Positions 1 to 35,236 of a DNA stretch of 64,000 nucleotides are shown here, one piece after another. Within the stretch, counting starts at the first letter, position 1, and every line of letters begins with the position of its first letter. A program made the position numbers and the translations under genes. The notes under the pieces were generated by a model. That model did not search any database and was not told where the DNA came from. It saw only the letters and a list, made by a program, of their open reading frames with translations. The stretch comes from Aliiroseovarius halocynthiae (GTDB lineage Bacteria > Pseudomonadota > Alphaproteobacteria > Rhodobacterales > Rhodobacteraceae): the NCBI RefSeq assembly GCF_007004645.1, contig NZ_ML660019.1, forward strand, positions 1,508,437-1,572,436. The letters run 5' to 3'.

Positions 1-597
1 ATGCGCATCGCACGGCGGGCAATGGATCTGGCGATCTCGGGCGGTGCGCTTCTTGCCCTTTCTCCGGTTTTCCTGACACTCACCGCGCTGATCAAGCTTG
101 ACAGCAAGGGGCCTGCCTTCTTCTCGCAAACACGCATTGGCAAAGACGGGCAGCCGTTCCAGGTTCTAAAATTTCGCTCGATGCACACAGATGCTGAAAA
201 ACGACGTACAGCGCTTTTGGCGCATTCCGAACGGGACGGCATTTGCTTCAAGCATAAAAACGATCCGCGCATCACACGGATGGGTAAGCTGCTGCGCAGG
301 GCCTCTCTGGATGAACTACCACAGCTGATCAATGTACTACGCGGGGATATGTCGATCGTGGGGCCTCGCCCTGCCCTGCCCTCGGAGGTCGCGCAATATC
401 CAAAGCGCGCATTAAAGCGTCTCAGCGTGAAACCCGGCATTACCGGCATCTGGCAAGTATCGGGTCGTGCCGATATCGGGTTCGACAAGATGATTGACAT
501 GGATCTCGCCTATACAAGGTCGCACAGCATCTTGCTGGACATCATCCTTATTTGCCTGACCTTTCGTGCGGTTATCACGGGCCGCGGCGCCTACTAG
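1..597 (+). CDS. Bacterial sugar transferase (ExoY/WcaJ-like priming transferase), possibly 5'-partial
   Basis: Predicted membrane-bound enzyme that transfers a sugar phosphate to undecaprenyl phosphate, the first step in building an exopolysaccharide repeat. The 198-residue product has one N-terminal hydrophobic segment (about residues 10-32), then the family core: the SKGPAFFSQTRIG stretch, KFRSM, the RRASLDELPQL helix, the GDMSIVGPRPALP motif and KPGITGIWQVSGR. This is close to the normal length of the short ExoY type, which lacks the long WcaJ N-terminal membrane region. The frame is open from base 1, so the real start could lie upstream. It probably belongs with the EPS genes at 9988-18549, although unrelated genes lie between. 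The sugar transferred cannot be told from sequence. Confidence 0.88.
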   Translation: MRIARRAMDLAISGGALLALSPVFLTLTALIKLDSKGPAFFSQTRIGKDGQPFQVLKFRSMHTDAEKRRTALLAHSERDGICFKHKNDPRITRMGKLLRRASLDELPQLINVLRGDMSIVGPRPALPSEVAQYPKRALKRLSVKPGITGIWQVSGRADIGFDKMIDMDLAYTRSHSILLDIILICLTFRAVITGRGAY

Positions 598-875: not shown

Positions 876-2495
876 ATGGAATTTGACTTTGTTATTGTTG
901 GGGGTGGATCAGCTGGCGCGACGATTGCGTCGCGGTTAAGCGAGGACCCGAACACAAAGGTTTGCCTGCTTGAGGCGGGCGGCACCGGCAAAGATATCTT
1001 CATCAGGACACCCATGGCAGTTGTTGCGATGTTACCGGGGCGTCCGAAGATCAACAACTGGGCCTTCAACACCGTGCCGCAACCCGGCCTGAACGGGCGC
1101 AAAGGGTATCAACCGCGCGGCAAGACCTTAGGCGGATCCAGCGCGATCAATGCGATGCTGTATATTCGCGGCCAGAAAGAAGACTATGACAGCTGGGCCG
1201 ATCTTGGAAACGAAGGTTGGGGTTGGGATGACGTCCTTCCTTATTTCCGCAAAGCCGAAAACAACGTGCGCGGGGCTGACGAGGCACATGGAGGCAGCGG
1301 TCCGCTGCAGGTTTCTGACCAAAAGGCTCCTCGCCCGATCTCGCTGGCTTTCATTGACGCCAGCAATGAGATGCAGGTGCGTCCGACAGCGGATTTCAAT
1401 GACGGCGACAACGAAGGCGCTGGCATGTGGCAAACCACCCTGTTCCACACACCAGACAAAAATGGCGAGAGATGCTCGGCGGCTGCGGCCTATTTGCATC
1501 CCATCATGGATGAGCGTCCGAATCTGACGGTGATCACCAGGGCGCATGCAACCAAGGTGATCTTCGAAGGCAAGCGGGCCGTGGGCGTGGCCTATCGGCA
1601 CGGCAAAAACGTCAGAGAAGTACGCGCAAGCAAAGAGGTCATCTTGTGTGGTGGCGCGTTCCAATCCCCACAACTGCTAATGTTGTCAGGCGTGGGTCGG
1701 CCTCAGGACATCACACCGCACGGTATCGAGATGACCCATGAACTGCCCGGTGTCGGACAGAACCTTCAGGATCATCTTGATTTTGTAATGGGATACAAAA
1801 CCAAGGACACTGACAACCTTGGCATTGGCTTTCGGGCCGGGGTCAAACTGCTGGGCGAGATCCTCAAATGGAAGAAGCACGGCAACTCGATGGTGGCATC
1901 AACCATCACAGAATGTGGCAGCTTCTTCAAAAGCGATCCGTCGATTGATCGCCCGGACCTTCAGACCCATTTCGTGATTTCTGTCGTCGACGACCACGCA
2001 CGCAAACTGCACATGGGCCATGGGTATTCCTGCCATGTCTGCAACCTACGCCCCTACTCGCGTGGCGAAGTCTTCCTGCAAAGCGCAGACCCGATGGATG
2101 CACCGGGCATTGATCCGAAATTCCTGTCGGATGATCGAGACCTCGATATCATGATCAAAGGGGCCAAGCTGACACGCGCGACGCTCGAGGCGCCAGCCTT
2201 GGCCAAATATAAGCACAAAGAGCTTTTCGGCGTGCACGACAACATGACCGATGCCGAATGGGAAGAGGTCATCCGCAATCGGGCCGACACGGTCTATCAC
2301 CCTGTCGGGACCTGCAAAATGGGCACTGACGACATGGCAGTCGTCAGCCCCGAGCTGAAAGTGCGCGGGCTTGCGGGGTTGCGCGTTGCTGACGCCTCAA
2401 TCATGCCGCTGCTGGTGTCCGGAAACACAAACGCCCCTACCATCATGATCGGCGAAAAATGCGCCGACATGATCAAGGCTGAATATGCTGCGTAA
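876..2495 (+). CDS. GMC-family FAD-dependent alcohol dehydrogenase (AlkJ/choline dehydrogenase-like)
   Basis: Predicted FAD-dependent oxidation of a primary alcohol to an aldehyde. The 539-residue protein starts with a dinucleotide-binding motif GGGSAG at residues 9-14, has GMC signature 1 (GKTLGGSSAIN, from about residue 82) and signature 2 (GAFQSPQLLMLSGVG), and carries the catalytic His475 (YHPVGTC) with Asn519 in SGNTNAPT, the His/Asn pair of the family. No signal peptide is visible; AlkJ relatives sit on the cytoplasmic membrane face. The next gene is an acyl-CoA ligase 27 bases downstream, followed by an aldehyde dehydrogenase, so the module would turn an alcohol into an acyl-CoA. Choline dehydrogenase is a less likely alternative, because the expected betB/betI context is absent. 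The start is supported by GGGAGG upstream. Confidence 0.9.
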   Translation: MEFDFVIVGGGSAGATIASRLSEDPNTKVCLLEAGGTGKDIFIRTPMAVVAMLPGRPKINNWAFNTVPQPGLNGRKGYQPRGKTLGGSSAINAMLYIRGQKEDYDSWADLGNEGWGWDDVLPYFRKAENNVRGADEAHGGSGPLQVSDQKAPRPISLAFIDASNEMQVRPTADFNDGDNEGAGMWQTTLFHTPDKNGERCSAAAAYLHPIMDERPNLTVITRAHATKVIFEGKRAVGVAYRHGKNVREVRASKEVILCGGAFQSPQLLMLSGVGRPQDITPHGIEMTHELPGVGQNLQDHLDFVMGYKTKDTDNLGIGFRAGVKLLGEILKWKKHGNSMVASTITECGSFFKSDPSIDRPDLQTHFVISVVDDHARKLHMGHGYSCHVCNLRPYSRGEVFLQSADPMDAPGIDPKFLSDDRDLDIMIKGAKLTRATLEAPALAKYKHKELFGVHDNMTDAEWEEVIRNRADTVYHPVGTCKMGTDDMAVVSPELKVRGLAGLRVADASIMPLLVSGNTNAPTIMIGEKCADMIKAEYAA

Positions 2496-2522
2496 GCGGA
2501 ACAAAGAACACGGAGAGCGACA

Positions 2523-4151
2523 ATGCTGGGCGCAATGATGAAACAAGAGCTGCTGATCAGCTCGTTGATTGAACACGCTGGAAAGTATCACGCCGACACC
2601 GAGATCGTGTCGCGCGAAACCAATGGTGATCTTCACACGACCAATTGGGGCGAAACCGCAATTGAAGCCCGCAAACTGGCGTCCTCATTAAGCAAAATGG
2701 GCCTTGATCAAGGTGACCGGGTGGCCACAATTGCGTGGAACAATCATCGGCACCTGAAGATCTGGTTCGCGTTGTCGGGCAGCGGGCTGGTCTGCCATAC
2801 GCTAAACCCGCGGCTGTTCCCCGAACAGCTGATCTTCATCATCAATGATGCTGGCAACAAGGCGATCTTCTTTGACAAGACGTTCATGCCCTTAATCGTC
2901 GGCACACGAGAGCATCTGAAAGCAGTCGAGCATTTCATATACATGGGGCCTCATGATGAAGAAGTTGCCGCAGCGGTCCCCGGCGCAATCTTCTTTGACG
3001 ATCTCATGGGGGGGGGCGATGGCGACTATCAGTGGCCACAACTGCCCGAAGATACCCCCTGTTCGCTCTGCTATACTTCGGGAACCACCGGACACCCCAA
3101 AGGCGTGCTCTACACAAACCGTTCTACAATGTTGCACAGCTTTGCCATTTCCCTGCCCGATGCCCTGTCCTTGTCCGCGAGCGAGATCATCCTGCCCGTG
3201 GTTCCGATGTTCCATGCCAACGCATGGGGCATCCCCTATTGTGCGGCCATGACCGGGGCCAAATTGGTGATGCCCGGACCGGGCTTGGATGGCGACAGCT
3301 TGCTGGGCCTAATTGATAGCCAGAAGGTCACGCTGGCCCTTGGCGTTCCAACGATCTGGATGATGCTTTTAGACGCCGCCGAAAAATCCGGATCCAAAAT
3401 GGAGACGCTACGCCGAAACGTTATTGGCGGGTCTGCTGCCGCACCATCCATGATCGCAACATTCCGGGACAAATACGACTGTGACACCATCCACGCCTGG
3501 GGAATGACCGAAACCAGTCCACTTGGCACCGCCAACATGCCGAAAGCGAAACACGCCGATCTTGCGCCTGATGCGAGGGCCGCCTTGCGGTTGGGTCAGG
3601 GTCGCCCGCCCTTTGGGATCGATCTGCGCATCGTCGATGAGAACGGCGTCGCATTGCCACATGATGGGGTTGCCGAAGGTGCCCTTCAGGTGCGCGGGCA
3701 CTGGGTTGTTGATACCTATTTCGGCATGACCGAAACCGCGATGACAGACGACGGCTGGTTCGACACTGGCGACGTGTCCACAATCGACGCGGATGGGTAC
3801 ATGGTGATCAGGGATCGCACCAAAGACATCATCAAATCAGGTGGCGAATGGATTTCATCGGTCGACCTGGAAGGGATTGCGGTAGCCCATCCCGGCATCG
3901 CGATGGCCGCTGCAATCGGCGCGAAACATCCGAAATGGGATGAACGCCCGATGATTGTTGCCGTGAAGGCTGACGGAGCCAATCCGACCGAGGAAGAGGT
4001 CATCGCGCTTTTCGCAGACAAGGTCGCCAAGTGGCAAATCCCGGATGCCGTGGTCTTCACCGATGCCATTCCGCTGAACGGCACGGGTAAAATGCTCAAG
4101 AACAAGCTGCGCGAACAGTTTGGCGACACTCTGATTGAAAGGGGTGTGTAA
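2523..4151 (+). CDS. Medium/long-chain acyl-CoA synthetase (AlkK-like AMP-forming ligase)
   Basis: Predicted to activate a fatty acid (or similar carboxylate) to its CoA thioester with ATP. The 542-residue protein has the AMP-binding loop YTSGTTGHPKG at about 184-194, the GMTETSPLG motif near 327, the hinge region DRTKDIIKSGGEW, and the catalytic lysine Lys523 in NGTGKMLK. Length and motifs match the AlkK/FadD13-like group of about 540 residues. It lies 27 bases after the GMC dehydrogenase, and its stop codon is followed after a single base by the aldehyde dehydrogenase start, so the three are very likely co-transcribed. Chain length preference cannot be read from sequence. Confidence 0.9.
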   Translation: MLGAMMKQELLISSLIEHAGKYHADTEIVSRETNGDLHTTNWGETAIEARKLASSLSKMGLDQGDRVATIAWNNHRHLKIWFALSGSGLVCHTLNPRLFPEQLIFIINDAGNKAIFFDKTFMPLIVGTREHLKAVEHFIYMGPHDEEVAAAVPGAIFFDDLMGGGDGDYQWPQLPEDTPCSLCYTSGTTGHPKGVLYTNRSTMLHSFAISLPDALSLSASEIILPVVPMFHANAWGIPYCAAMTGAKLVMPGPGLDGDSLLGLIDSQKVTLALGVPTIWMMLLDAAEKSGSKMETLRRNVIGGSAAAPSMIATFRDKYDCDTIHAWGMTETSPLGTANMPKAKHADLAPDARAALRLGQGRPPFGIDLRIVDENGVALPHDGVAEGALQVRGHWVVDTYFGMTETAMTDDGWFDTGDVSTIDADGYMVIRDRTKDIIKSGGEWISSVDLEGIAVAHPGIAMAAAIGAKHPKWDERPMIVAVKADGANPTEEEVIALFADKVAKWQIPDAVVFTDAIPLNGTGKMLKNKLREQFGDTLIERGV

Positions 4152-4152
4152 G

Positions 4153-5892
4153 ATGGATGGCGCACAAACAGACATCGAAGGCCAGGACGCGCTTTTTGAC
4201 GAATATGATGCAGCCCTTGCAGAGTTGAATGAAGCCAAGGACGCTTGGGTGAAAGTATCCCCCACCGAGCGCATCGCGCTTCTTGCTGGCATGAAAGACG
4301 GCATCATGAAGGTGGCTGAAGGCTGGGCCGATACGTCGGCACGCAAAAAGGGGTTGGTCGCCGGGACGCCGATTGCTGGCGAAGAATGGCTCGCCGGCCC
4401 TTATGCCACCATCGCGGGCGTGAATGCCTTTATGGCGACGCTGAACGAGATTGAAGGCAAAACCTTCGTCGATCATCTGCCGCAACGCGAACTTGCAACA
4501 GGTCAATTGGGGGTGAAGGTTCTGCCGCATTCGATCTGGGATCGCCTGCTCTTATCCGGAGTACGTGCCGAGGTCTGGATGCAAAAAGGTGTAACGCCCG
4601 CCAACCTTAAGAAGCATGTAGCAATTGCCTATGATATTCCGGAAAAGGACCGCATCGGCAAAGTCGCCTTGGTTCTAGGCGCAGGAAATGTGGCGGCGAT
4701 CACCCCACTGGATGTGCTGCAAAAACTGCTGCTCGAAGATCAGGTTGTGATCCTAAAAATGAACCCCATCAATGACTACCTGATCGATTTCTACAAAATC
4801 GCGATGAAGCCGTTCATCGATGGCGGCTTTTTGCGGGTCGTCAAAGGCGATGCCACTGGGGGTGCGTATCTGTGCGAACACCCAATTGTCGAAGAGCTGC
4901 ACATCACCGGATCAGACGCGACCCATGATGCGATTGTCTGGGGCGTCGGGGGCAAAGGGGCAGCCAACAAAAAGGCAGGCACACCCAAGAACACCAAACG
5001 CTTCACGTCGGAACTGGGGTCGGTCAGCCCAACCATCGTGGTGCCGGGCCCTTGGACTTCCGCCGACATCAGGTTTCAGGCCGAGAACATCGCAACGATG
5101 AAGCTGCACAACTCGGGGCATAATTGCATCGCGACGCAAGCGCTGGTCATGCCCAAGGACTGGGCCAAAGGTCCGGCGCTCTTGGACGCTCTGAAATCAG
5201 TGATCGCGTCCTCGACCCGCCCTACATGGTATCCTGGCGCGGAACAACGCTTGAACAGCTACGCAGAACATGGCGGCAAGGTCGAAAAAATCGCGCGCGG
5301 GGAAAATGCGCCACCCGTGATGATCGGAGAGATCTCGGAAGATACTTACAACCGCTCTTGCGAAGTATTTGGCCCTGCGCTTGGCATCAAGGAGCTGGAT
5401 GCTTCGGATGCGGAATCCTATTTGGTTGCCGCGATAGAGTATGCCAACACCGAACTTTGGGGGACGCTGGGGGCGAACATCCTTATACATCCCAAGACCA
5501 TTCGGAAGATTGGCAAGAAGCGGTTTGAGGAAATCCTCGCAGCCCTCCGCTATGGGACGATTGGCGTAAACGGCTGGTGCGGTTTAGGATTTCTGATCAC
5601 AGCCTGCCCGTGGGGCGCGTTCCCCGGCCACACGCTAGAAAACATTGGGTCTGGCATTGGCACGGTGCACAATTCTTTCATGCTAGAGAAAACCGAAAAA
5701 ACTGTCATTCAAGCACCTTGGCGACCATTCCCGCGCGGGGTGCTATCGGGACAACTCTCGATTTTGCCACGGCCACCATTCTTTATAACCAACAAGCGGC
5801 AGCACAAAATCGGAAGGCTTTTGACACGCTTCCAGTACAGGCCAAGCTGGTTCAAGCTGCCCCGCATCTTTCTGAATGCATTGCTGGGGTAG
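4153..5892 (+). CDS. NAD(P)-dependent aldehyde dehydrogenase family protein with C-terminal extension
   Basis: Predicted to oxidise the aldehyde produced by the upstream alcohol dehydrogenase. The ATG at 4153 is chosen over a TTG 18 bases earlier because AAAGGGG lies about eight bases upstream of it. The 579-residue product contains the nucleotide-binding fold (VALVLGAGNVAAITPLD, ITGSDATHDAIVWG), the glutamate motif ELGSVSPTIV and the nucleophile Cys325 in HNSGHNCIA. It is longer than the usual 480-500 residues; about the last 75, after MLEKTEKTV, are basic and rich in Pro, Phe and Arg (RPPFFITNKR), and resemble a membrane or partner contact rather than catalytic core. The family assignment is firm, the substrate is inferred from context. 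Confidence 0.87.
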   Translation: MDGAQTDIEGQDALFDEYDAALAELNEAKDAWVKVSPTERIALLAGMKDGIMKVAEGWADTSARKKGLVAGTPIAGEEWLAGPYATIAGVNAFMATLNEIEGKTFVDHLPQRELATGQLGVKVLPHSIWDRLLLSGVRAEVWMQKGVTPANLKKHVAIAYDIPEKDRIGKVALVLGAGNVAAITPLDVLQKLLLEDQVVILKMNPINDYLIDFYKIAMKPFIDGGFLRVVKGDATGGAYLCEHPIVEELHITGSDATHDAIVWGVGGKGAANKKAGTPKNTKRFTSELGSVSPTIVVPGPWTSADIRFQAENIATMKLHNSGHNCIATQALVMPKDWAKGPALLDALKSVIASSTRPTWYPGAEQRLNSYAEHGGKVEKIARGENAPPVMIGEISEDTYNRSCEVFGPALGIKELDASDAESYLVAAIEYANTELWGTLGANILIHPKTIRKIGKKRFEEILAALRYGTIGVNGWCGLGFLITACPWGAFPGHTLENIGSGIGTVHNSFMLEKTEKTVIQAPWRPFPRGVLSGQLSILPRPPFFITNKRQHKIGRLLTRFQYRPSWFKLPRIFLNALLG

Positions 5893-5951
5893 GATCCGCT
5901 GCGGGCTGGTTGTGTGTTGCATCCAGCCGACAAGATAGCCAAATTTGTAAG

Positions 5952-6563
5952 ATGAATGAAATGCCTACAAAGCTTAAAGACCGCGCAGATCGGAAAACGG
6001 CGAAACGCGATGCAAAGAAGCGCCAAATCGCCGAAAGCGCGATATTGGCGCTGAAAGAGCTGGGCTATGCAAATACCGGCCTGCGGGACATCGCCGCCCA
6101 CAGCGATTTGTCGTTGGGTATGCTGCATTATTACTTCGAAGATCGCGCCGAGCTGATCATCTATTGCGTCGAAATCTACAAACAGGAATTCGTACGGAAG
6201 TTTGTAGACGCCTTAGAAACGGCCCATGGCCGTGATCAGGTGATCGACGCATTCACCGAAGCTCTTGTGGCATCAATTGTCGACGACAACATGACCCATC
6301 GGCTTTGGTATGACATCCGAACACAGGCCATGTTCGACGAGGCCTTCCGCCCAGTTGTCGCGAATATCGAAGAGGCGCTAATCGGCATTTTGCGCACAGC
6401 GTTTGACAAAGCAGGTCATGGCGCACCGTCGAACATAGATATCCATTATGCGCTGCTTGACGGTGCATTCAGGTACATCATGCAAGCCCAAATCGGTGCG
6501 CCCGCTCGGACCCGAGATGAGCTAACAGCGCTATTCCAGAAGTTGCTTTCCCAAATTCTATAG
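5952..6563 (+). CDS. TetR/AcrR-family transcriptional regulator
   Basis: The 203-residue protein has a TetR-type helix-turn-helix at about residues 20-70, ending in the typical LSLGMLHYYFEDRAELI stretch, and a helical ligand-binding C-terminal domain. It lies 59 bases behind the aldehyde dehydrogenase on the same strand, so it is probably the local repressor of the alcohol-to-acyl-CoA operon, perhaps binding the palindrome at 797-806. The frame stays open far upstream, across the end of the preceding gene, but that part shows no TetR sequence. ATG at 5952 or 5961 fits the family; neither has a strong ribosome site. Confidence 0.85.
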   Translation: MNEMPTKLKDRADRKTAKRDAKKRQIAESAILALKELGYANTGLRDIAAHSDLSLGMLHYYFEDRAELIIYCVEIYKQEFVRKFVDALETAHGRDQVIDAFTEALVASIVDDNMTHRLWYDIRTQAMFDEAFRPVVANIEEALIGILRTAFDKAGHGAPSNIDIHYALLDGAFRYIMQAQIGAPARTRDELTALFQKLLSQIL

Positions 6564-6913
6564 TGGCCGCATCTATGCCCCCCCACTCTCCTTTGCGCTA
6601 TGGGTTCGCATTATTAGCCAGCCCATAACTCCGGTCCGAAAGAGATGCTGCCGTTGATCGATTGTTTGCTGCTCATATGTGTGATCGGTGACGCATGCGA
6701 AGCGGCGTTGAATGTTCACAAAGGACATCTCGACACGATCTGGGCAGATCTTAGCCCCGATTTGCACAAACTCCTTCAATCTAAAGAGATTCCCATTCCA
6801 AGCGGCATGACAAATGATTGCAGCCTATCCGATCGGGTATGCCGCTATACTGAATAGAGGATTTCAGTGGCATCAAGTATTTCGTAAGGTCTGATCAGTA
6901 AGAGGAGTTTCCA
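6564..6913. other. 350-base stretch with no convincing gene
   Basis: The gap separates the TetR gene from the SUOX-fold gene. A 70-codon open frame at 6645-6857 (+) begins MLPLIDCLLLICVIG, with a weak AAAGAG before it, but shows no recognisable domain and could be chance. The stretch just before 6914 carries AGAGGAG, the ribosome site of the next gene. I see no clear hairpin terminator for the TetR gene. Confidence 0.4.
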
Positions 6914-7414
6914 ATGTTGTCTAAAGCAATTGCCGTTGTGACCTTTATCTTCGTTGCCCCCTTCACGTTGATTTCGGCAGAATTCAAATCACCCGAAGGG
7001 GACGTGATATTAACGATTAACTATGACGGCGCTACAGGCACGGAAACGATCGAACTAGACCTTGCGGGAATAGAGGATTTGGGGCTGACAACAATCGAAA
7101 CGTCAACCATCTGGACAGAAGGCGTGCAAAGTTTTGTAGGCATTGAACTTGCCACGCTGACCCGGGCGCTTGGAATCGCGTCAGGGACGATCCGCGCAGT
7201 TGCTCTTAACGACTATGCGGTTGAAATCCCGGTGAGCGACGCTGTGACAGGTGGCCCAATTCTGGCCGTCATGCGAAATGCAGCCCCAATGTCGGTGCGA
7301 GACAAAGGTCCGGTGTGGGTTATTTACCCCTATGACGCCTCATCGGACTACCGGACCGAAGTCATCTATTCCCGCAGTATCTGGCAGCTCACAAAACTCG
7401 ATTTCCAGGAGTAA
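6914..7414 (+). CDS. Periplasmic SUOX/molybdopterin-binding-fold protein lacking cysteine
   Basis: The 166-residue product has a cleavable signal peptide (about residues 1-22, ending ISA) and the short sulfite-oxidase-type fold seen in oxidoreductase molybdopterin-binding proteins: TIWTEGVQSFVGIELATL, then LNDYAVEIPVSD and KGPVWVIYPYD. Real enzymes of this fold ligate molybdenum through a conserved cysteine; this protein has no cysteine at all, so it is unlikely to be a catalytic molybdoenzyme. It ends five bases before a hybrid sensor kinase, and the ribosome site of the kinase (AGGAG) lies inside its last codons, so the two are surely co-expressed. A role as a periplasmic ligand-binding or sensory partner of the kinase is inferred. 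Confidence 0.8.
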   Translation: MLSKAIAVVTFIFVAPFTLISAEFKSPEGDVILTINYDGATGTETIELDLAGIEDLGLTTIETSTIWTEGVQSFVGIELATLTRALGIASGTIRAVALNDYAVEIPVSDAVTGGPILAVMRNAAPMSVRDKGPVWVIYPYDASSDYRTEVIYSRSIWQLTKLDFQE

Positions 7415-7419
7415 CTCGT

Positions 7420-9993
7420 ATGACACCAGAGCCTTCCCGGGTCGAAGCAACTCTGTCCCGGATGGTCAACAGTAAGACTGGTTTGATAGGCCTGGCGATC
7501 CTCGCCGGGCTTACACTCTTTTCCATAACCGTATTGTCGATAAATGTAGCTCGCGACATTGGGCAGCTCGACTCTGCGAGATCCGACAATATCCAATGGA
7601 CACTTACGCAAGCCGAGGTAGAGTTTCTGGAGCTTGAGCGCGCTGCGATGCTAGCTCGCCAGAGCGACGCTCCAGATCTGACCGGGCTACGGAGAGAATT
7701 TGACATTTTCTATAGCCGGATCAATACGCTAACCCAGTCTAGCATCTATTCGAATCTCCGAGAAGACGAAACCTTCGGCCAAAGCCTGCTGGCACTTAGA
7801 ACATTTCTGAACGAGACCACACCTGAGATTGATGGGACAGATGCAGACCTGTTGACTGCGCTGCCACAACTCCTAGATCGCACCCAAAAAACCGGTCCCT
7901 CAGCGCGCAGGCTCTCAAACTCGGCACTCAGTTATTTCGCAAATCAGGCGGATATTCGGCGCGCAACTCTACTGGCCACGCTCAGAAACCTTGCGGCTAC
8001 GATGGGAATACTGACGTTTGCTTTGATTGGGCTACTGCTTTTGTTGAATTCGGCAAATCGGCGCAACCGGCTGAACATGATCGCAGCCCAAAACTCTCAG
8101 AGCCGGACCGAGACAATCATAAACACCTCGCTGGACGCAGTGATTGTTACCGACCTGACTGGCAAGGTTCTAGATTACAATAATGCCGCCGAGCTGATTT
8201 TTGGCCACACGCGTGAAACCGCATTAGGCAAAGAACTGGGAGAGCTGATTATTCCCGAAAAATATCGTGCAGCACATGCCGCCGGGATGGAACGCATGCG
8301 CGCATCTGGCGATCGCAATGTTGTTGGACGGGGTCGTGTCCAGCTTGAGGGGCTACGTGCGAATGGGGATGTTTTCCCCGTCGAGCTGGCGCTTCAAGCG
8401 GCCAAGACTGCTGATGGCGAAGTGTTCGTAGCCTTCCTGCGCGATATATCGGCCAAGATCGCTGCGGACAAAGAACTAATTCAGGCACGCGATTCAGCGC
8501 TGGAAAGCGAGCAGGCCAAGAACAGTTTTCTCGCAACAATGAGTCACGAAATCCGCACGCCTTTGAACGGATTACTGGGCAGCCTCGCCTTGCTGCGCGA
8601 CACAGCGCTTAACACTAAACAGTCAACCCACGTAGCGAATATGGAGAAGTCGGGACGACTTTTGATGAACCATATCTCGGATGTTCTGGACATCACAACC
8701 TATGACGCGGGAAAACTGGAACCACACCTTGGCCCTGTGAATCTCAGCAAACTTCTAAAAGACATCGTAAGCAGCCAGTCTGGCGCGGCCATGGCTCATC
8801 ACACCACGCTGGAGTGGGGGTGGAAAGGCAACCCCGTGGATTGGATCGAGACCGATAAGCGAAAGATCCAGCATATTCTGGTCAATCTCATCGGAAACGC
8901 GATCAAGTTCACCCATGCAGGCCGTATCGTACTTGAGACCGAGCTCCGGGCAGATGCGCCTGGGAAGATGACTGCATATCTTCGTGTCTCGGACACCGGG
9001 TGCGGCATTCGTCCGGATATGATCGAGAAGATCTTTGACGATTTCGTAACTGGTGATGCTTCTTATAACCGTAATACCGGCGGTACCGGGCTTGGCCTGG
9101 GCATCGTAAAACGCTTCGTAGATTCGCTTGGTGGAACCGTGACGGTTGACAGCACTGTGGGTGCTGGAACCGTTTTTGAGGTGTCGATCCCCACCCGCCG
9201 CGTTGCGAACCCAGCTACGCCTCATGCTGAGGAAGGCAGCCCGAACGCCATGGCATCATTGGATATCCTTTTAGTTGAGGACAACGAGATAAATCAGTTT
9301 GTTGCAAAAGAGATGCTGTTGAAGGCTGGCCATCAGGTGGCTACAGCCGCGAACGGGAAACTTGGTGTCGATCAGGCCCACGCACATCCGTTCGACCTGA
9401 TCTTCATGGATATCAGCATGCCTGTCATGGATGGGCGCGAGGCAACGCGAGCCATTCGCGCAGGCGCCGGGGCGTCAAAAACAACACCTATCGTAGCCCT
9501 AACCGCAAACGTGCTTCCACAAGAACACGAGGCGTTTCTGGCCGATGGCATGAATGATTTGATTACCAAGCCACTGGACGCCGACACCCTCAGTCAGATC
9601 ACAAGAAAGTGGGTTCTTGAGATGTCGCCGCCCCCCTCGCACCGCACACCATCACTATTGTCGGAGGAGCATTTCACAGAGATGCGCGAGATGATTGGGC
9701 CCGCGCAGCACGCCGCGCTGTTTGATCGCGTATCCGGAGAAATTTCCGACTTTCTTGCAACGCATGGAAATCCGACACAAAACACATTGCCGAACATCAT
9801 AGAACCAACACATAAAATCGTTGGAAGTACATCCGCCATCGGGGCGACTGACGTCTCTGATCTTTTGCGCTCTATCGAAAGAGCAGCAAAGATGGGTGAC
9901 TTTCACACTGCATCGCAAAACATTGATAATATTCAACGGGTTTGGGACAAAACTCACGCGGAATTCGTCGTTCGTAGCGCCGGTAGCCTATAG
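7420..9993 (+). CDS. Hybrid sensor histidine kinase (2 TM, PAS, HisKA, HATPase, REC, Hpt)
   Basis: The 857-residue protein is a complete phosphorelay. Membrane segments lie at about 20-43 and 190-211 and enclose a periplasmic helical domain of about 145 residues. Then come a PAS domain (230-345), the HisKA box MSHEIRTPLNG with His376, the ATPase domain (NLIGNAIKF from 489, DTGCGI at 525, GTGLGLGIVKR), a receiver domain (from 614, VEDNE, phospho-acceptor Asp664 in FMDIS) and a C-terminal Hpt domain with His798 (THKIVGSTSAIGA). Phosphate would pass His376 to Asp664 to His798 and on to an unknown response regulator; none is encoded nearby. The neighbour at 6914-7414 is its likely periplasmic partner. 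Its stop codon overlaps that of the convergent gene by six bases. Confidence 0.93.
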   Translation: MTPEPSRVEATLSRMVNSKTGLIGLAILAGLTLFSITVLSINVARDIGQLDSARSDNIQWTLTQAEVEFLELERAAMLARQSDAPDLTGLRREFDIFYSRINTLTQSSIYSNLREDETFGQSLLALRTFLNETTPEIDGTDADLLTALPQLLDRTQKTGPSARRLSNSALSYFANQADIRRATLLATLRNLAATMGILTFALIGLLLLLNSANRRNRLNMIAAQNSQSRTETIINTSLDAVIVTDLTGKVLDYNNAAELIFGHTRETALGKELGELIIPEKYRAAHAAGMERMRASGDRNVVGRGRVQLEGLRANGDVFPVELALQAAKTADGEVFVAFLRDISAKIAADKELIQARDSALESEQAKNSFLATMSHEIRTPLNGLLGSLALLRDTALNTKQSTHVANMEKSGRLLMNHISDVLDITTYDAGKLEPHLGPVNLSKLLKDIVSSQSGAAMAHHTTLEWGWKGNPVDWIETDKRKIQHILVNLIGNAIKFTHAGRIVLETELRADAPGKMTAYLRVSDTGCGIRPDMIEKIFDDFVTGDASYNRNTGGTGLGLGIVKRFVDSLGGTVTVDSTVGAGTVFEVSIPTRRVANPATPHAEEGSPNAMASLDILLVEDNEINQFVAKEMLLKAGHQVATAANGKLGVDQAHAHPFDLIFMDISMPVMDGREATRAIRAGAGASKTTPIVALTANVLPQEHEAFLADGMNDLITKPLDADTLSQITRKWVLEMSPPPSHRTPSLLSEEHFTEMREMIGPAQHAALFDRVSGEISDFLATHGNPTQNTLPNIIEPTHKIVGSTSAIGATDVSDLLRSIERAAKMGDFHTASQNIDNIQRVWDKTHAEFVVRSAGSL

Positions 9994-11181
9994 AGTTCCT
10001 AAGCTCAAAACTCCAAGAACGCGACCAACTTCAGCGACATTCGTAACAGAACTATCATAACACGCCATCGCATCTCCGGGCAAAAGGAAGGGATCAAAAT
10101 CATCCCGTTCGGATCGGCGCATCAGCTGCTCGATATTGCGCTCGATCACCACGGACACCTGCGTCTCGGGGTTGCGCGAAAACAAAACAACCGACCGGTT
10201 CGCACTGGTCGTTTTTGCCCCGCCAACACAGTTCATGTTGATCGCAGCCTGCAGGAACCTCGTTCCATAGGGTACTTGTCGCGTCTCACGCCCATTGGCC
10301 GATGGCGCGTTTCCTGTCGCGGGCTGCGTCAGGTTCGACACAAACAATGAGATCCCCGGTGGGCTGATGGGACCAGGGCGCATCAGATCATCCTGAAAAC
10401 ACCTGCGGCTCGGGACCCGCACCTGATCCCCGGACAACAGCATGATATCGACATTGTTGTGCCCTTCGAACACGCCGCGCATGTCGATTTTATAGACCAT
10501 TGCACCGCGCGCGACCTCAATCGCAGACAAATCCGCATCCGGACGAACCCCCCCCGCCGCACGCAAAGCCGCAGACAGGTTGCGCCCTTCGGACGACGCC
10601 CCCAAAGCGTCCTGCCGCCGCGCGTCGATGTCTTTTCCGGTGACCGATCCGATCTCGACCGCGTGTGGCTCAAACACGGCACCAGACACCCCTATCGTGA
10701 CCGAGGCAAAATCGCGCACTCGGACCGAAACACTTGGCACTTCAGTAAAGAACTCGCGGGCGCGCAATTTTGCTGCGATATCTGTTTCAATCTCGGTGGT
10801 TAAACGCCCCTGTGCACGGACTGAATCAAGAAACGGAAGCTTCAGTGTTCCATCGCGTGACACAACATAAGGTCCGCTGAACGTATCGTCGCCACTGACA
10901 AAAATCTCGACCAGATCATTCCGGGTCAGGCGCTCTCCAATCAGACGACTCGTCCCTTTGCCCCCATCCCCGCCACGTGGCGCAAGACATTTCTGCGCAT
11001 TCATCCGAGCGGACCTCAGGAAACCTTCTTCATCTTCTGCGGCATTCGGCGCGCGATACTGCGCCTGATAGGCATCACCTTGCTTCACCGGTTCCAGGTT
11101 CTCAGGAGGGTCAAGACTGGCACATCCAGACAGCAGGATAAGCGCGGTAGTGGCAGAGAGGGACTTGGCAACTTTGGACAT
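9988..11181 (-). CDS. Polysaccharide export outer-membrane lipoprotein (Wza-like)
   Basis: Predicted exit channel or adaptor for an exopolysaccharide. The 397-residue product has a lipoprotein signal with lipobox LLSGC and acylated Cys20, then a polysaccharide-export domain (RLTRNDLVEIFVSG, GPYVVSRDGTLKLPFLDSV) and SLBB-like beta-grasp segments (ASVTIGVSGAVFEPHAVEIG, LSGDQVRVPSRR). It is divergent from the flippase gene across a 184-base regulatory gap. Its last codons overlap the end of the sensor kinase gene head to head. Together with the sugar transferase, flippase and glycosyltransferases, it marks a Wzx/Wzy-type EPS locus. No chain-length or tyrosine-kinase partner is seen. Confidence 0.87.
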   Translation of the reverse strand: MSKVAKSLSATTALILLSGCASLDPPENLEPVKQGDAYQAQYRAPNAAEDEEGFLRSARMNAQKCLAPRGGDGGKGTSRLIGERLTRNDLVEIFVSGDDTFSGPYVVSRDGTLKLPFLDSVRAQGRLTTEIETDIAAKLRAREFFTEVPSVSVRVRDFASVTIGVSGAVFEPHAVEIGSVTGKDIDARRQDALGASSEGRNLSAALRAAGGVRPDADLSAIEVARGAMVYKIDMRGVFEGHNNVDIMLLSGDQVRVPSRRCFQDDLMRPGPISPPGISLFVSNLTQPATGNAPSANGRETRQVPYGTRFLQAAINMNCVGGAKTTSANRSVVLFSRNPETQVSVVIERNIEQLMRRSERDDFDPFLLPGDAMACYDSSVTNVAEVGRVLGVLSLGTL

Positions 11182-11259: not shown

Positions 11260-11277
11260 CCTATCCGCTTGGATAGG
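11260..11277. promoter_or_regulatory. Perfect inverted repeat in the divergent EPS promoter region
   Basis: CCTATCC (11260-11266) and GGATAGG (11271-11277) form a perfect seven-base dyad around GCTT. It lies in the 184-base gap between the divergent export lipoprotein (start at 11181) and flippase (start near 11366) genes and has no U-tract, so an operator that controls both directions is more likely than a terminator. No regulator gene is adjacent. Confidence 0.4.
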
Positions 11278-11365: not shown

Positions 11366-12610
11366 ATGTTCAAAATGACCACGACCTCACAACTCAGCAC
11401 GCTTACCAAAGGCCTGATGGCCTATGGTGCGTCAGAGATTGCCGCCAAAGCCTCGCGCTTGTTCGTGGTTGTGGCGGTTGCCCGATCGCTTGAGCTGGCC
11501 GAAATTGGCATGGCCGCAGCAGCCATGGCGGCCGGTGACATCGTAAAATCTCTGACCGAGAACGGTGTTGGTCAAAGGATCATCGCTGCCCGCAAGGACA
11601 TGTTGCAAGCGACCTGTAACACCGCACACAAGATTTTCTGGTTCTGGTGCATTGGGTTATTCACTCTTCAAACCAGCATCGCGGGTGTTGTTTTCTTAAC
11701 AGGGGGCAGCACGACCTTATCCGCGCTGATCCTGTTTCTGGCCGTCGAATATCTGTTCATGCCTGGGGGTCTGGTTCAAGTCGCCTTGGCAATGCGGGCG
11801 GGCAAACTTCGGCAAACCGCCGCTATATCAGGTACGCAGATCGTGGGGACCAATCTGGCAGCCGCTGCGCTTGCTGTGATCTGGGCCAGCCCACTGGCAT
11901 TGATCTTGCCGCGCGTATTGTCGGCCCCGTTCTGGTTGATAGCACAACGCCGCCTGCACCCTTGGTCTTCAGACTCTGCAGCGGGCCATGTACCGGTTGG
12001 CCCTTTTATACACTATGGGCGTGCTGTCTTGGGCACAGAAGTCACCAAAGCTCTGCGCATGCAGGCGGACAAAGTGATCATTGGCGCTCTGATGGGCCCC
12101 GAGATACTGGGCCTTTATTTCATGGCCTTCAATGCGGGGCTCAGCTTGGCGAACTCGGTTTCGGTTGCGCTGGCGACGGTGGTTTTCCCACACCTTTGCA
12201 ACGCTCAAGACAAAGCCGAGGCGCTACGTCAGAGTATCTTGCTACCACTCACGGTCGTCGCCCCCATCGTCACACTTCAAGCTATGCTGGCCCCGTTCTA
12301 TGTGCCAGTGCTGTTTGGTGACGGATGGGACGCGATCAGCCCGGTTGTATCGATCCTGTGCCTTGTGGCCATCCCAACGACGCTTTGGACCGCCACCGCA
12401 GGCTGGCTGCGGGCACAAAACCGGCCCGAAGTGGAGCTTTGGGTAACTCTTGCCCTTACGGCGGCCCTGCTGGCGAACGCAACCCTGCTGGCACCCTTTG
12501 GACTGACACCGGTCGCAGCGGGATACGCCATCGTCACCACCGCAATCTTGCTCACCGCATCTGCCCCGGCGCTTCAGCTGGCCTATGGGCGGACCAAACA
12601 GAAAGCATAA
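11366..12610 (+). CDS. Oligosaccharide/polysaccharide flippase (Wzx-like, MATE/MVF fold)
   Basis: Predicted inner-membrane protein that moves lipid-linked oligosaccharide to the periplasmic side. The 414-residue sequence is strongly hydrophobic, with about twelve membrane segments, a typical N-terminal segment (LMAYGASEIAAKASRLFVVVAVARSLE), the long central loop after HYGRAVLGTEVTKALRMQADKVIIGALMG, and closing helices VTLALTAALLANATLLAPFG. ATG at 11375 (three residues shorter) is equally possible. It heads a plus-strand run of flippase and three glycosyltransferases with gaps of three bases or little more. The substrate is unknown. Confidence 0.85.
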   Translation: MFKMTTTSQLSTLTKGLMAYGASEIAAKASRLFVVVAVARSLELAEIGMAAAAMAAGDIVKSLTENGVGQRIIAARKDMLQATCNTAHKIFWFWCIGLFTLQTSIAGVVFLTGGSTTLSALILFLAVEYLFMPGGLVQVALAMRAGKLRQTAAISGTQIVGTNLAAAALAVIWASPLALILPRVLSAPFWLIAQRRLHPWSSDSAAGHVPVGPFIHYGRAVLGTEVTKALRMQADKVIIGALMGPEILGLYFMAFNAGLSLANSVSVALATVVFPHLCNAQDKAEALRQSILLPLTVVAPIVTLQAMLAPFYVPVLFGDGWDAISPVVSILCLVAIPTTLWTATAGWLRAQNRPEVELWVTLALTAALLANATLLAPFGLTPVAAGYAIVTTAILLTASAPALQLAYGRTKQKA

Positions 12611-12613
12611 GCG

Positions 12614-13534
12614 ATGACCAAATTCTCGATCATAATCCCCTGCTTCAACGCGGAAGCCACACTTGGCACCACGCTGGACAGCATTCGCGCTCAATCCTAC
12701 ACGGATTGGGAGGCAATCATCGTCGACGACGGCTCGACGGACAAAAGCGGCCAGATCGCTCGCTCATTCGCGCAACGAGACAGTCGCATCACGTCTGTTC
12801 GCAACAAACTCAAAAATCCAAGCACCGCCCGAAACTATGGGGCGATGAACATCGCGCATGGCGAAATCTTTGCCTTTTGCGACGCCGATGATGTTTGGAG
12901 CACCGGCAAGTTGGCGTCACTTGCTCAGGCCTTCACCGATCCGAAAATTCACGGTGCATTCGGGCAAATTGCGTTCTTCAAAAACACACCACGCGATGCA
13001 TCTGTCTTTTCAACCGTTCCAAATGGCAATCTGACAATCGAGATACTGCTTGGTGAAAACCCGGTTTGTACCTGCTCAAACCTTAGCATCCGACGCGACA
13101 GTTTTATAAGATCAGGCGGTTTCGCAATCGACATGGTACATAACGAGGATCTAGACTGGCTGGTCCGTGCTGTTGGTCAAGGGCTGCAGATCGTTGGCCT
13201 GCAAGAGCTTCACACCTATTACCGCAGCAGTCCTGGCGGATTGTCATCAGATCTCGAGGCCATGGCCACCTCACGACAGCGCGTCTTCGCCACCGCGGCG
13301 CAGTTCGGCGTCTGCCCAAGCCCGCAAAACCACGCGATCTATCACCGCTACCTGGCCCGCCGCGCGTTGCGCATGTGCGACAACCGGCGGCTGCCACTGC
13401 GTTTCACCCTTGCTGGCATAAAAAGCAGCCCCTTAGGCTTCTTTTCCTCGCCACGCCGTGGTGCGCTGACCTTGATCGCAGCGCTTGGCGTTTTGGTGAT
13501 GCCCCGCCCTCTTATTCGCTCTCTTTTTGCCTAG
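12614..13534 (+). CDS. Glycosyltransferase family 2
   Basis: A 306-residue GT-A glycosyltransferase. The N-terminal domain opens with FSIIIPCFNAEATLGTTLDS, followed by the nucleotide-sugar motif IIVDDGSTDKS and the metal-binding FCDADDVW. The acceptor side includes the NEDLDWLVR motif (about 176-184). No membrane anchor is evident until a hydrophobic tail (about 283-298). The gene begins three bases after the flippase and is followed after 13 bases by a second family 2 enzyme, which it resembles in layout and probably arose from by duplication. It should add one sugar of the EPS repeat; donor and linkage are unknown. Confidence 0.87.
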   Translation: MTKFSIIIPCFNAEATLGTTLDSIRAQSYTDWEAIIVDDGSTDKSGQIARSFAQRDSRITSVRNKLKNPSTARNYGAMNIAHGEIFAFCDADDVWSTGKLASLAQAFTDPKIHGAFGQIAFFKNTPRDASVFSTVPNGNLTIEILLGENPVCTCSNLSIRRDSFIRSGGFAIDMVHNEDLDWLVRAVGQGLQIVGLQELHTYYRSSPGGLSSDLEAMATSRQRVFATAAQFGVCPSPQNHAIYHRYLARRALRMCDNRRLPLRFTLAGIKSSPLGFFSSPRRGALTLIAALGVLVMPRPLIRSLFA

Positions 13535-13547
13535 AAAGGACTTTTTC

Positions 13548-14543
13548 ATGACCTTCGCGTCAATCATTGTTCCCGCCTATAACGCGGCCAGAACCCTGCC
13601 TGAAACCATCGAGGCCCTTCTAGCTCAGACCCACGACAGTTTCGAGATCATCATCATCAACGACGGATCGACCGATGAGACGATCGAAATCTCGAACCGC
13701 TATGGCGCTGACGAAAAGATCCGCGTTGTGCACCAACGCAACCGCGGGCTTGCTGGCGCACGCAACAGTGGCATTCACGCTGCGGCAGGCGAATTCATTG
13801 GATTTTGCGATGCTGATGATATCTGGCAACCCGAAAAACTGGCACAACATATTGCACATCTGCGTGCGAACCCGTCGATAGGGCTTAGTTATTCCGGATC
13901 ATTGCTGATCGACGACTTGGGCGCGCCACTTGGCCAGACCCAATCACCCAAACTGACCCGCGTCGACACGGCACATGTCTTCAAGCGAAATCCGATTGGC
14001 AATGGATCAGCTGTCATTGTCCGCCGCGACGTCTTTCGCGACATCGCTTATCGCCCCAATCGCGCCCATGATCGAGACTGGTACTTTGACGAGACTTTCC
14101 GCCAATCCGAAGACATCGAATGCTGGCTGCGCATTGCCCTGACCACAAACTGGGAGTTTCAGGGGATCAAAGGCCACCTGACACAATACCGGATTAATGC
14201 AAATGGTTTGTCGGCCTCAATTGAGAATCAACTTCAAGCCTGGGAACAGATGGTCGAGAAACTGCAGCCATTGGACCCCGATTTCTTCGCCGAGCATCTG
14301 CCTGCTGCGCGTGCATATCAGCATCGTTATTTGTGCCGCCGGGCGCTGAAATCTCTGGATGTCACCCGCGCACACAAACACGCCAATGACTGGATGCGCA
14401 GCTCTGCCCGTCCCTTCCTCGAAGAACCGCTGAAATCCGCGGCGACATGGGGCGCTTTGCAGCTGATGTCCCTGTGCGGCGCAACCGCGATGCAGCGCCT
14501 ATTCACCCTTATTGCATCAACCAACCGCCAAGGAGCCGCCTAA
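13548..14543 (+). CDS. Glycosyltransferase family 2
   Basis: A 331-residue GT-A enzyme with the motifs FASIIVPAYNAARTLPET, IIINDGSTDET and GFCDADDIWQPEKL, then QSEDIECWLRIAL as the probable catalytic-base region. The ATG at 13548 has AAAGGA nine bases upstream and gives the standard N-terminus; the open frame extends seven codons further without support. The stop codon overlaps the start of the next gene in TAATG. The same overall plan as the preceding glycosyltransferase suggests paralogues with distinct acceptor specificity in EPS assembly. Confidence 0.87.
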   Translation: MTFASIIVPAYNAARTLPETIEALLAQTHDSFEIIIINDGSTDETIEISNRYGADEKIRVVHQRNRGLAGARNSGIHAAAGEFIGFCDADDIWQPEKLAQHIAHLRANPSIGLSYSGSLLIDDLGAPLGQTQSPKLTRVDTAHVFKRNPIGNGSAVIVRRDVFRDIAYRPNRAHDRDWYFDETFRQSEDIECWLRIALTTNWEFQGIKGHLTQYRINANGLSASIENQLQAWEQMVEKLQPLDPDFFAEHLPAARAYQHRYLCRRALKSLDVTRAHKHANDWMRSSARPFLEEPLKSAATWGALQLMSLCGATAMQRLFTLIASTNRQGAA

Positions 14544-15574
14544 TGACCCGCAGAACCATCCTTCACCTCTGTGACGATCAAACCGCTGGCGGTGTCACCC
14601 GCGTGCTAGAGCACCTGACCACCTGCCCGATCATTGCTGCCTCAGGCGATAGCCATATCACCAAATTTATCTCGCGCGGCACAGCGCGGCTTGGGCGGCT
14701 TAAGGCCGACGTGATTGTTTCTCATCTGTCAGTTTCATGGCGGATGCTACCGACCCATATAACCTTGCGTGCAACCAATCCTACAACGCCTCTGGTTCAT
14801 GTCGAGCACAGCTATACCCAAAGCTTCTTGGACAATAATGTCCGCCACGAAGGGCGGTTCAAAACACTCCTACGCACGGTATATGCACTTTACGACAGGA
14901 TCATCGCGGTGAGTTTCGCGCAGGGACGTTGGCTGACCGACGCACGGCTGGTGCGCCCTCGGTTGCTAGACGTCATTCAATCGACAACATCATACAAAGA
15001 TCTGCGCGCCCTTCCCGCACGTTCGGGCCCTGCCCGCATCCTTGCCCTGATCGGGCGTCTAGATCGTCAAAAGGGGTTCGACACCGCGATAACGGCTTTC
15101 AGGCAGACCCCAAACCCGAAACTGCGCCTGCGCATCTATGGAAACGGTCCCGAGAAGAACAATCTCACACAGCTCGCACTTGGGGATGCACGGATTTCGT
15201 TCGAAGGACATCACAGCGATCCCTGCGAGATCTATGGAAGTGTCGATGCGGTTCTAATGCCCTCGCGCCGCGAGGCCTTTGGCTTGGTCGCAGCCGAAGC
15301 GCTTGCCGCCCGTCGCGTTGTTCTGGCCCACAAAGTAGATGGGCTTGCGGATCACGCCGAATGCGGTGCAATTATGCTTGCGTCTGAGGACCCCGTCGTC
15401 TGGGCGCACGCCATCGAAAATCTTACGCATACTGCTCCTAAACTCGATGCATCGCATGCATCTGCGACCACGCCGGAACAGATCTTTGCCGCAGCATGGG
15501 AGCATCTTATCGATACGCTCTGCCATCCGTCAAAGGTGCCAACAAAACATGAATACAATGTTTTAGCGACATAG
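14543..15574 (+). CDS. Glycosyltransferase family 4 (GT-B fold)
   Basis: A 343-residue GT-B retaining-type glycosyltransferase. The donor domain shows RILALIGRLDRQKGFDTAI, LRIYGNGPEKNNLTQLA, the VDAVLMPSRREAFGLVAAEA segment with the E-x7-E pair, and a following hydrophobic strand. The start ATG overlaps the previous stop by one base and has AAGGAG about eight bases upstream, which rules out an in-frame extension into the previous gene. It is the last glycosyltransferase of the run, and a separate promoter seems to precede the mutase that follows. Confidence 0.87.
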   Translation: MTRRTILHLCDDQTAGGVTRVLEHLTTCPIIAASGDSHITKFISRGTARLGRLKADVIVSHLSVSWRMLPTHITLRATNPTTPLVHVEHSYTQSFLDNNVRHEGRFKTLLRTVYALYDRIIAVSFAQGRWLTDARLVRPRLLDVIQSTTSYKDLRALPARSGPARILALIGRLDRQKGFDTAITAFRQTPNPKLRLRIYGNGPEKNNLTQLALGDARISFEGHHSDPCEIYGSVDAVLMPSRREAFGLVAAEALAARRVVLAHKVDGLADHAECGAIMLASEDPVVWAHAIENLTHTAPKLDASHASATTPEQIFAAAWEHLIDTLCHPSKVPTKHEYNVLAT

Positions 15575-33031: not shown

Positions 33032-35236
33032 ATGGCGACATTAGACAATGCCATTTGGCTGACGGGTACCAGTGGTGAGGCTGAGAACGGAAGCACGGTC
33101 ATCTCTGACGGTGCGAATGACACGACCGTAACGGCATCTTTCACTGGCGACTGGGCTCCTGTCACGAATGGTGGCAGTACGATCGCAGACTTTGGTGGAA
33201 AATTCATCTCGTCGCAGAATACGGCGAATTACGAGTTTTCCAGCCCTATCGAGAACGTGTCATTTGATTTCCAACACGTGAATTCAAGTGGCTCGGCTAA
33301 CGACGATTCCTGGACCATTCGTGCCTATGATGAAAATGGCGACCTCATCGACAGTGACGATATTGTCGCGTCCATCAGTGGACTTGATCAAGACACGGTA
33401 ACGGTCAATCCAGATGGCTCGGTCACCATCGAAGCCGAAGGCAGTGCCGTCAATGATGTCTCCTTCAATTACACTGGTGGCTTTGTCTCTGAGATCAACC
33501 TGACATTCGAACCAGGCGACGACGCCTCTATCACCGGCGGCTCCGGCATTTCGGATTTGACGTTCGATATTGCACCGGACCTTGACGGTGACAACGTCCC
33601 CGACGCGATCGACATTGACGTGGATGGCGATGGCATCCTGAACGAAGATGAAGGCGCCGGCGACACAACGTTGACCGTCACGTTCGACGGTGATTTCTAC
33701 TCGGGCTCCGAAAACTCGTGGGAGATTTTGGACGAGAATGGAAATGTCGTCGCATCAGGCGACGTCACATCTTCGGGCGTTGAAACGTGGGATGTTTCAG
33801 TTCCGCCGGGCTCCAACTACACGTTCAAAGTGGTTGATACCTTTGGCGATGGTTTGGGCTGGACAAGCGGCGACTCAAACTCGGATGCTGGTTTCTCGTT
33901 GTCTATTGGCGGCACAACGGTGCTCGACAATGGTGGCAATCCCATCAGCAGCACGGGATATGAAGACTTCGGAAGCGAGACGTCGTTCACGTTCGATCTT
34001 GATCCGCTAGATACAGACGGTGATGGAGTTGCCGACTATCTGGATCTGGACAGCGACAATGACGGCATTTTGGACAATGTCGAGGCACAAACCTCGACCG
34101 GCGATGTCGCCCCGACGGGCGTGGACAGCGATGGCGACGGTCTGGACGACGCCTATGACGCGACGCCAACAACAGGTGCTGTGGGATCGAACGGACTGTC
34201 CCCGGAAGACACGGACAATGATGGCGTAGACGACTATCTGGATCTGGACAGTGATAATGACGGTATCACGGATAACGTCGAGGCGCAGACCAGCACAGGT
34301 TATGTCGCTCCGACGGGCATCGATACAGATGGCGACGGAATTGACGACGCTTATGACGCGACCCCCACGACTGGATTGGCAGGCTCTAACGGCCTGACCC
34401 CGGAAGACACGGATGGGGACGACACGGAAGACTACCGCGACACGGACAGTGACGGTGATGGTATTTCCGACACGGATGAGGCCGGGCATGGTGTCGACCA
34501 AGCCGCCATTGACGCATCTGGTGATGCAGATGGCGACGGCATCAAAGACGTTGTCGATGACGTGGATGGTTGGGATGTCAACGACGATGATGTTGACGGT
34601 TCAGGCAATATCACCTTGGACGATACCGATGGGGACGCGGGCTCTGGCGGCGATTTCGACTATCGCGATGTGATCTGCTTTACGACGAACAGTCTGATCC
34701 TGACCGATCGTGGCGAGCGTCCCGTACAAGATTTGCGGGTCGGCGATATGGTCGTCACACGCGACCACGGTCTGCAGCCCATTCGCTGGACTGGCCGAAA
34801 AACCACGATTGGAGCAGGCCGTCTTGCCCCGGTCCGCATTCAGGCGGGAACATTTGGCAATCACAGCGATCTGATCGTGTCACCTCAGCACCGTATGGTG
34901 TATGAAGGACCGCAAGCGAACCTTTTGTTCGCCCAGCCCGAGGTCATGATCCCTGCCGTACATCTGCTGCATAGCGGAAGCGCCAAACAGACCGAGATGG
35001 AGCAGGTTACCTATTTCCATATCATGTTTGATGCGCATCAGGTGATCTTCGCCAACGGAGCAGCAACCGAAAGCTTCCACCCCGGCCACCAAGGCCTGAG
35101 CGCGGTACATGATGCCGCACGGGACGAGCTGTTCACCCTGTTCCCGGAATTGCGCAGCGAACCGCGCCAGTACGGAGACACGGCGCGCATGGTTCTGAAG
35201 GGCTATGAAGCACGCGTGCTGGACCTGACACGCTAA
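33032..35236 (+). CDS. Secreted-type acidic protein with TSP3-like calcium repeats and C-terminal Hint domain
   Basis: A 734-residue, very acidic protein without a Sec signal peptide. Residues about 1-185 form a beta-rich domain (lectin-like layout), followed by [17 protein letters not shown], a second beta domain (about 215-325), then Asp-rich thrombospondin-type-3-like calcium loops arranged as two exact 66-residue repeats (327-392 and 393-458) and further loops. A Hint_2-like autoprocessing domain begins at Cys549 ([40 protein letters not shown]) and continues to the end, with VSPQHRMVY. The only cysteine seen is Cys549. Similar proteins are common in roseobacters and usually travel by type I secretion; no transporter is nearby. 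Confidence 0.83.
34010..34405 (+). repeat. Two tandem 198-bp repeats inside the Hint protein gene
   Basis: Copy one (34010-34207) and copy two (34208-34405) encode nearly the same 66 residues, from [19 protein letters not shown] through [12 protein letters not shown] and its counterpart, with sequence drift mainly at third codon positions. A partial third copy follows from 34406. Equal lengths point to an internal tandem duplication. Confidence 0.85.

Follow-up and report, generated by a model that had tools for sequence, protein, structure and literature searches.

In the TorT-TorS-TorR system, a periplasmic binding protein informs a hybrid kinase of the H-D-H type. Another periplasmic sensory protein, PruR, is described in the available parts of the review PMC13259868: PruR proteins lack the Mo-ligand cysteine, have a pterin as their ligand (the binding residues in Agrobacterium tumefaciens being Asn102, Tyr104 and Trp160), and are paired with either DcpA or 'DTB' sensor kinases. 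According to the same parts of the review, many PruR proteins precede a two-component kinase whose periplasmic domain resembles that of DcpA and contains a WX7E motif (PruR-DTB); no response regulator, operator or target is named there for these systems. Here we present a Rhodobacterales locus in which, with a probability that we put at roughly 70%, PruR-DTB pterin sensing is wired via a NarL-type regulator and a palindrome to exopolysaccharide (EPS) genes. The kind of PruR-kinase pair found here is already known, and the novelty would lie in the predicted output pathway, i.e. the regulator, the palindrome and the EPS genes, although priority for the regulator is uncertain.

The locus resides in a stretch of 64,000 nucleotides (the window) of the genome of Aliiroseovarius halocynthiae. 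Its pruR-type gene (positions 6914..7414, forward strand) encodes a predicted periplasmic pterin-binding protein of 166 amino acids, whose ORF translation contains a hydrophobic signal-like segment at the N-terminus and no cysteine. The size and the N-terminal signal (cleavage site not computed) fit the family criterion of approximately 170 amino acids with a secretion signal. PruR proteins are recognized by a secretion signal, the SUOX fold, the lack of a Mo-ligand cysteine, a Trp at the SUOX-cysteine position, an Asn/Tyr/Trp pterin site and pterin binding, and all of these features that can be decided at the sequence level were found in the small protein. When it was compared with solved structures (phmmer), the matches above noise comprised only pterin-binding proteins (7RKB, 7KOS/7KOU, 7KP2 and 7KOM; E 2e-27 to 4e-18). 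The preliminary description had seen in this gene a secreted, cysteine-free SUOX-fold protein, and the fold is borne out by the AlphaFold model (pLDDT 92.7): this matches the PruR crystal structures (7KOS/7KOU/7RKB/7KP2/7KOM) with Z values of 20.7-23.1, the Agrobacterium PruR giving Z 23 at 39% identity, and sulfite oxidases with Z values of up to 15.1. Residues N99, Y101 and W157, the counterparts of A. tumefaciens N102, Y104 and W160, are invariant in 113 sequences. The same is true of W67, which is located near the expected place of the SUOX cysteine, as estimated without a residue-level SUOX alignment. Cysteine is absent from 93 of the 114 aligned PruR cores. Judged from both sequence and model, the small protein is a member of the known PruR family; it probably binds a pterin, and its exact ligand could differ from that of the Agrobacterium protein.

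Separated from pruR by 5 bp, in a two-gene operon layout with pruR first, is the gene of a DTB-type hybrid histidine kinase of 857 amino acids (7420..9993, forward strand), with the predicted architecture TM1-helical periplasmic domain-TM2-PAS-HisKA-HATPase-Rec-Hpt. Pfam domains PAS (residues 230-343), HisKA (366-431), HATPase_c (479-593) and Response_reg (616-727) were identified, while the C-terminal Hpt (775-839) reached 17.8 bits against a Pfam cut-off of 24.6. In an alignment of 77 homologous kinases, the relay residues H376 (HisKA), D664 (Rec) and H798 (Hpt) were each found in all 76 scorable homologues, and both the Hpt domain and the relay are therefore considered genuine; the short intergenic gap and the full relay noted originally are thus confirmed. 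A domain search revealed no GGDEF/EAL output domains in the 857-aa protein. The periplasmic domain carries a W60-X7-E68 motif (W60 in 75/77 kinases, E or D at position 68 in 77/77) and can be aligned with that of a Sinorhizobium GGDEF-EAL partner, which also bears WX7E; a Foldseek search with this domain produced weak helical matches alone (NarQ, Vc1313; best E 0.04). From its sequence, the kinase is assigned to the known PruR-linked 'DTB' type. Its best NCBIfam match is TorS (6e-101, residues 355-731), with a score of 339 against an equivalog cut-off of 676, in keeping with the TorS/BaeS-like cytoplasmic kinase part expected of DTB partners. The TorT-TorS-TorR system resembles the present one in combining a periplasmic binding protein with a hybrid H-D-H kinase, but its binding protein is unrelated to PruR, and the candidate regulator identified here is of the NarL type.

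Similarities to PruR-DcpA of A. tumefaciens (PDB 7KOS/7KOU; PMC13259868, available parts) include a periplasmic cysteine-free SUOX-fold PruR, a two-gene operon and a membrane partner with WX7E, and they extend to the retained ligand residues and to a PruA/FolM-type reductase in the genome. The partner in A. tumefaciens, however, is a diguanylate cyclase-phosphodiesterase with c-di-GMP as the output, whereas the partner in our locus is a hybrid kinase, whose output is predicted to be transcription via a NarL-type regulator. The DTB protein WP_011045932.1 of Ruegeria pomeroyi, as presented in Figure 5 of PMC13259868, is a PAS-HisKA-HATPase-Rec kinase encoded behind pruR and carrying the same periplasmic motif; unlike this protein as depicted, the kinase described here also contains an Hpt (His798), which is conserved across the Rhodobacterales set.

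The preliminary description had suggested that the adjacency of the two genes be followed across genomes. The searches were started from PruR, and so covered only kinases linked to PruR; in the species collection, a kinase gene is situated directly downstream of pruR in 77 of the 80 named loci. In the remaining three, its place is taken by the gene of SelO, a protein adenylyltransferase (L039:8523-9986, L074:8516-9991 and L095:8471-10003); in two of these (L074 and L095) a 14-of-16 match to the palindrome discussed below is still present upstream of pruR. A PruR homologue was detected in 107/198 genomes of the same family and in 63/385 genomes of the wider class; in the latter, most homologues are followed by kinases that differ in architecture and a few by GGDEF/EAL proteins. 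On the Agrobacterium plasmid pAtCFBP6623a (L111, 4737-9709), a pruR-kinase pair precedes an annotated HD-domain phosphohydrolase gene, which also matched the regulator profile and represents another possible output.

No response regulator had been noticed near the pair. This is correct for the window but not for the genome, in which a NarL/LuxR-type response regulator (G000:C1:1506793-1507401, reverse strand) is encoded approximately 1.0 kb before the window start and approximately 8 kb from pruR; encoded just outside the window, it could not have been seen from the window sequence. Beside it, in divergent orientation, starts the gene of the EPS initiating sugar transferase (Bac_transf), whose C-terminal part occupies positions 1..597 (forward strand) of the window. 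The regulator is single-copy in this genome (the next paralogue is 31% identical), and its REC residues D7, D8, D53 and K103 are conserved in 74 homologues. In relatives it either lies immediately divergent to pruR or has EPS sugar-transferase genes between itself and pruR, and annotated plasmids of Sulfitobacter and Ruegeria contain a response regulator transcription factor within the same cluster as pruR. A homologue of the NarL-type regulator occurs in 72/80 named loci. By a strict criterion (divergent, upstream and within 6 kb of pruR), the regulator accompanies 64 of the 79 Hpt-kinase loci of the named set, and since many of these loci have no EPS genes, the regulator goes with the pruR-kinase pair. 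Considering all loci, Hpt kinases were found with a divergent regulator in 72 cases and without one in 27, and kinases lacking Hpt in 1 and 44 cases, respectively (the underlying sequences are related, and the cases are therefore not independent of one another). A mirror-tree comparison of regulator and kinase gave a correlation of 0.69, to which we attach no weight, as species history confounds it. We infer that the NarL-type regulator is the partner of the kinase. VarR of Nautella was also considered as this regulator and ruled out, being an autoinducer-type LuxR protein.

Promoters of the regulator, of pruR and of the Wza/flippase pair repeatedly contain an 18-bp palindrome, CCTATCCGNNCGGATAGG. 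It was derived, with the window's own loci left out, from words enriched in three types of intergenic region, i.e. regulator/sugar transferase, Wza/flippase and regulator/pruR. Matches at 12 or more of 16 positions were present in 18/24, 21/23 and 16/33 of these regions, respectively, compared with about 1% of shuffles; at 13 or more positions, the numbers were 13, 17 and 10 regions, with none among the shuffles. Loci of the wider class that lack the regulator rarely carry it: the palindrome was found in 4 of 54 pruR upstream regions. The window contains two predicted operators, namely CCTATCCGATCGGGTATG (6824..6841; 14/16), placed 72 bp upstream of the start codon of pruR, and CCTATCCGCTTGGATAGG (11260..11277; 15/16), situated in the gap from which the Wza-like and flippase genes diverge. 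The chance of a site in its region is approximately 8e-5 for the pruR promoter and 1e-6 for the Wza/flippase promoter, and these two are the only sites with at most two mismatches in the 3.39-Mb genome. The regulator's own promoter bears a weak site in this genome (12/16). The 14-base core, with at most one mismatch, gave 42 matches in 20 genomes, many of which immediately precede pruR; a reversed control gave 7. Among the further one-mismatch matches that were inspected in relatives, the majority are within ORFs, and these were disregarded as targets.

The occurrence of the palindrome is not uniform. About half of the loci with a regulator have no 13-of-16 site at pruR. Eight more distant pruR loci (L187, L189, L192, L194, L195, L196, L198 and L204) do have a NarL-type regulator in divergent orientation, but none of them contains the CCTATCC palindrome; the DNA specificity of the regulator may have changed in these loci. 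We predict that the regulator binds the palindrome, which could instead belong to another DNA-binding protein. In one genome (G006), pruR and the closest regulator are carried by one contig (C38), and an EPS cluster without a regulator by another (C43); both divergent promoters of this cluster bear the palindrome (two sites), an arrangement that points to control in trans rather than to common descent of a single intergenic region alone.

The predicted targets in the window are the genes of a Wza-like polysaccharide export protein (9988..11181, reverse strand; Poly_export and SLBB domains) and of an oligosaccharide flippase (11366..12610, forward strand). The latter is the first gene of a glycosyltransferase run, continued by three glycosyltransferases (GT2, GT2 and GT4; 12614..15574, forward strand) of the EPS cluster. 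Such a cluster adjoins pruR in only about one third of the named loci. Most of the genomes checked contain no close Wza homologue, and the targets therefore differ or vary elsewhere.

Several other interpretations of these genes were weighed. The name molybdopterin-dependent oxidoreductase, given to the PruR homologue in plasmid annotations of relatives, and a faint match with the Oxidored_molyb model (E 0.044, under the cut-off) would suit a small molybdenum enzyme with a non-cysteine ligand and a catalytic role. We rejected this idea as scarcely credible, because the protein has no Mo-ligand cysteine and its closest solved relatives were deposited as pterin-binding proteins; moreover, no redox partner gene is located nearby, and the gene shares its operon with a kinase in nearly all named loci. 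The absence of cysteine, the SUOX fold and the conserved kinase adjacency had also been taken as signs of an undescribed sensory module, built on a SUOX fold without its original metal and responding to an unknown ligand. One half of this proposal has held, as the fold does seem to have been reused as a periplasmic receptor, most likely feeding the adjacent kinase, with which it is kept in 77/80 named loci. Nor did the searches started from PruR bring up any group of homologues in which the Mo-ligand cysteine is conserved or a catalytic partner is present, a finding that would have spoken against the preliminary description. The claim of novelty has not: by sequence and structure the protein is a PruR, whose ligand residues correspond to the published ones, and the available parts of PMC13259868 already contain PruR, its cysteine loss, its pterin ligand and the DTB pairing, including the name of the kinase class. 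After the literature search, the notion of an undescribed module was rejected as very improbable.

A more serious objection concerns the output. The locus might contain a published PruR-DTB pair whose response regulator is encoded elsewhere, the divergent NarL-type protein and its palindrome constituting an independent, neighbouring EPS regulator. Hpt-bearing hybrid kinases can indeed signal to distant regulators, and the NarL-type gene in this genome is about 8 kb away from pruR. Nevertheless, many loci have the regulator directly divergent to pruR and no EPS gene, the presence of the regulator tracks the Hpt-type kinase, and the palindrome is also found in the pruR promoter itself. We therefore regard an independent EPS regulator as unlikely, and prefer the reading in which the NarL-type protein transmits the PruR-DTB signal.

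According to this preferred reading, a reduced pterin would bind PruR in the periplasm, and PruR would dock on the kinase, at the WX7E region of the latter's helical periplasmic domain, altering the phosphorelay H376 -> D664 -> H798. The relay would phosphorylate D53 of the divergently encoded NarL/LuxR-type regulator, which might then act on the 18-bp palindrome at the pruR-kinase and the divergent Wza-like/flippase promoters, thus setting both the transcription of the EPS genes and the abundance of the components of its own pathway. The docking, the direction of phosphoflow and the sign of regulation are presumptive elements of this scheme. It is somewhat probable, in our opinion, that PruR of Rhodobacterales does not act via c-di-GMP and instead works through a dedicated phosphorelay of four steps; this would end at a cognate NarL-type regulator, which would have a palindromic operator of its own and directly control genes of EPS export, whether in cis or in trans. 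If this is true, the reach of pterin signalling would extend beyond c-di-GMP, and transcription for the biofilm matrix would come under its direct control in an abundant group of marine bacteria. PruR-linked kinases are widespread, and the divergent regulator, the palindrome and the EPS genes provide an explicit, testable wiring diagram.

With regard to pterin supply, this genome encodes FolE2 but yielded no GTP cyclohydrolase I (TIGR00063). It also encodes an SDR with the TGX3RXG signature, which is FolM/PTR1-like and passes the unnamed model PRK09134; the FolM equivalog model gave no match above its cut-off in this genome. Among the PDB matches of the SDR, FolM (5TGD) is the closest, followed by pteridine reductases. 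On these sequence grounds, the FolM-like SDR is a plausible counterpart of PruA.

Two further features of the window were recorded. Positions 876-6563 are occupied by a four-gene block (GMC oxidoreductase, AMP-binding ligase, aldehyde-dehydrogenase family protein and TetR regulator), which replaces the UGPase that relatives have between the sugar transferase and pruR. In addition, positions 33032-35236 encode a 734-aa protein with a C-terminal Hint_2 domain.
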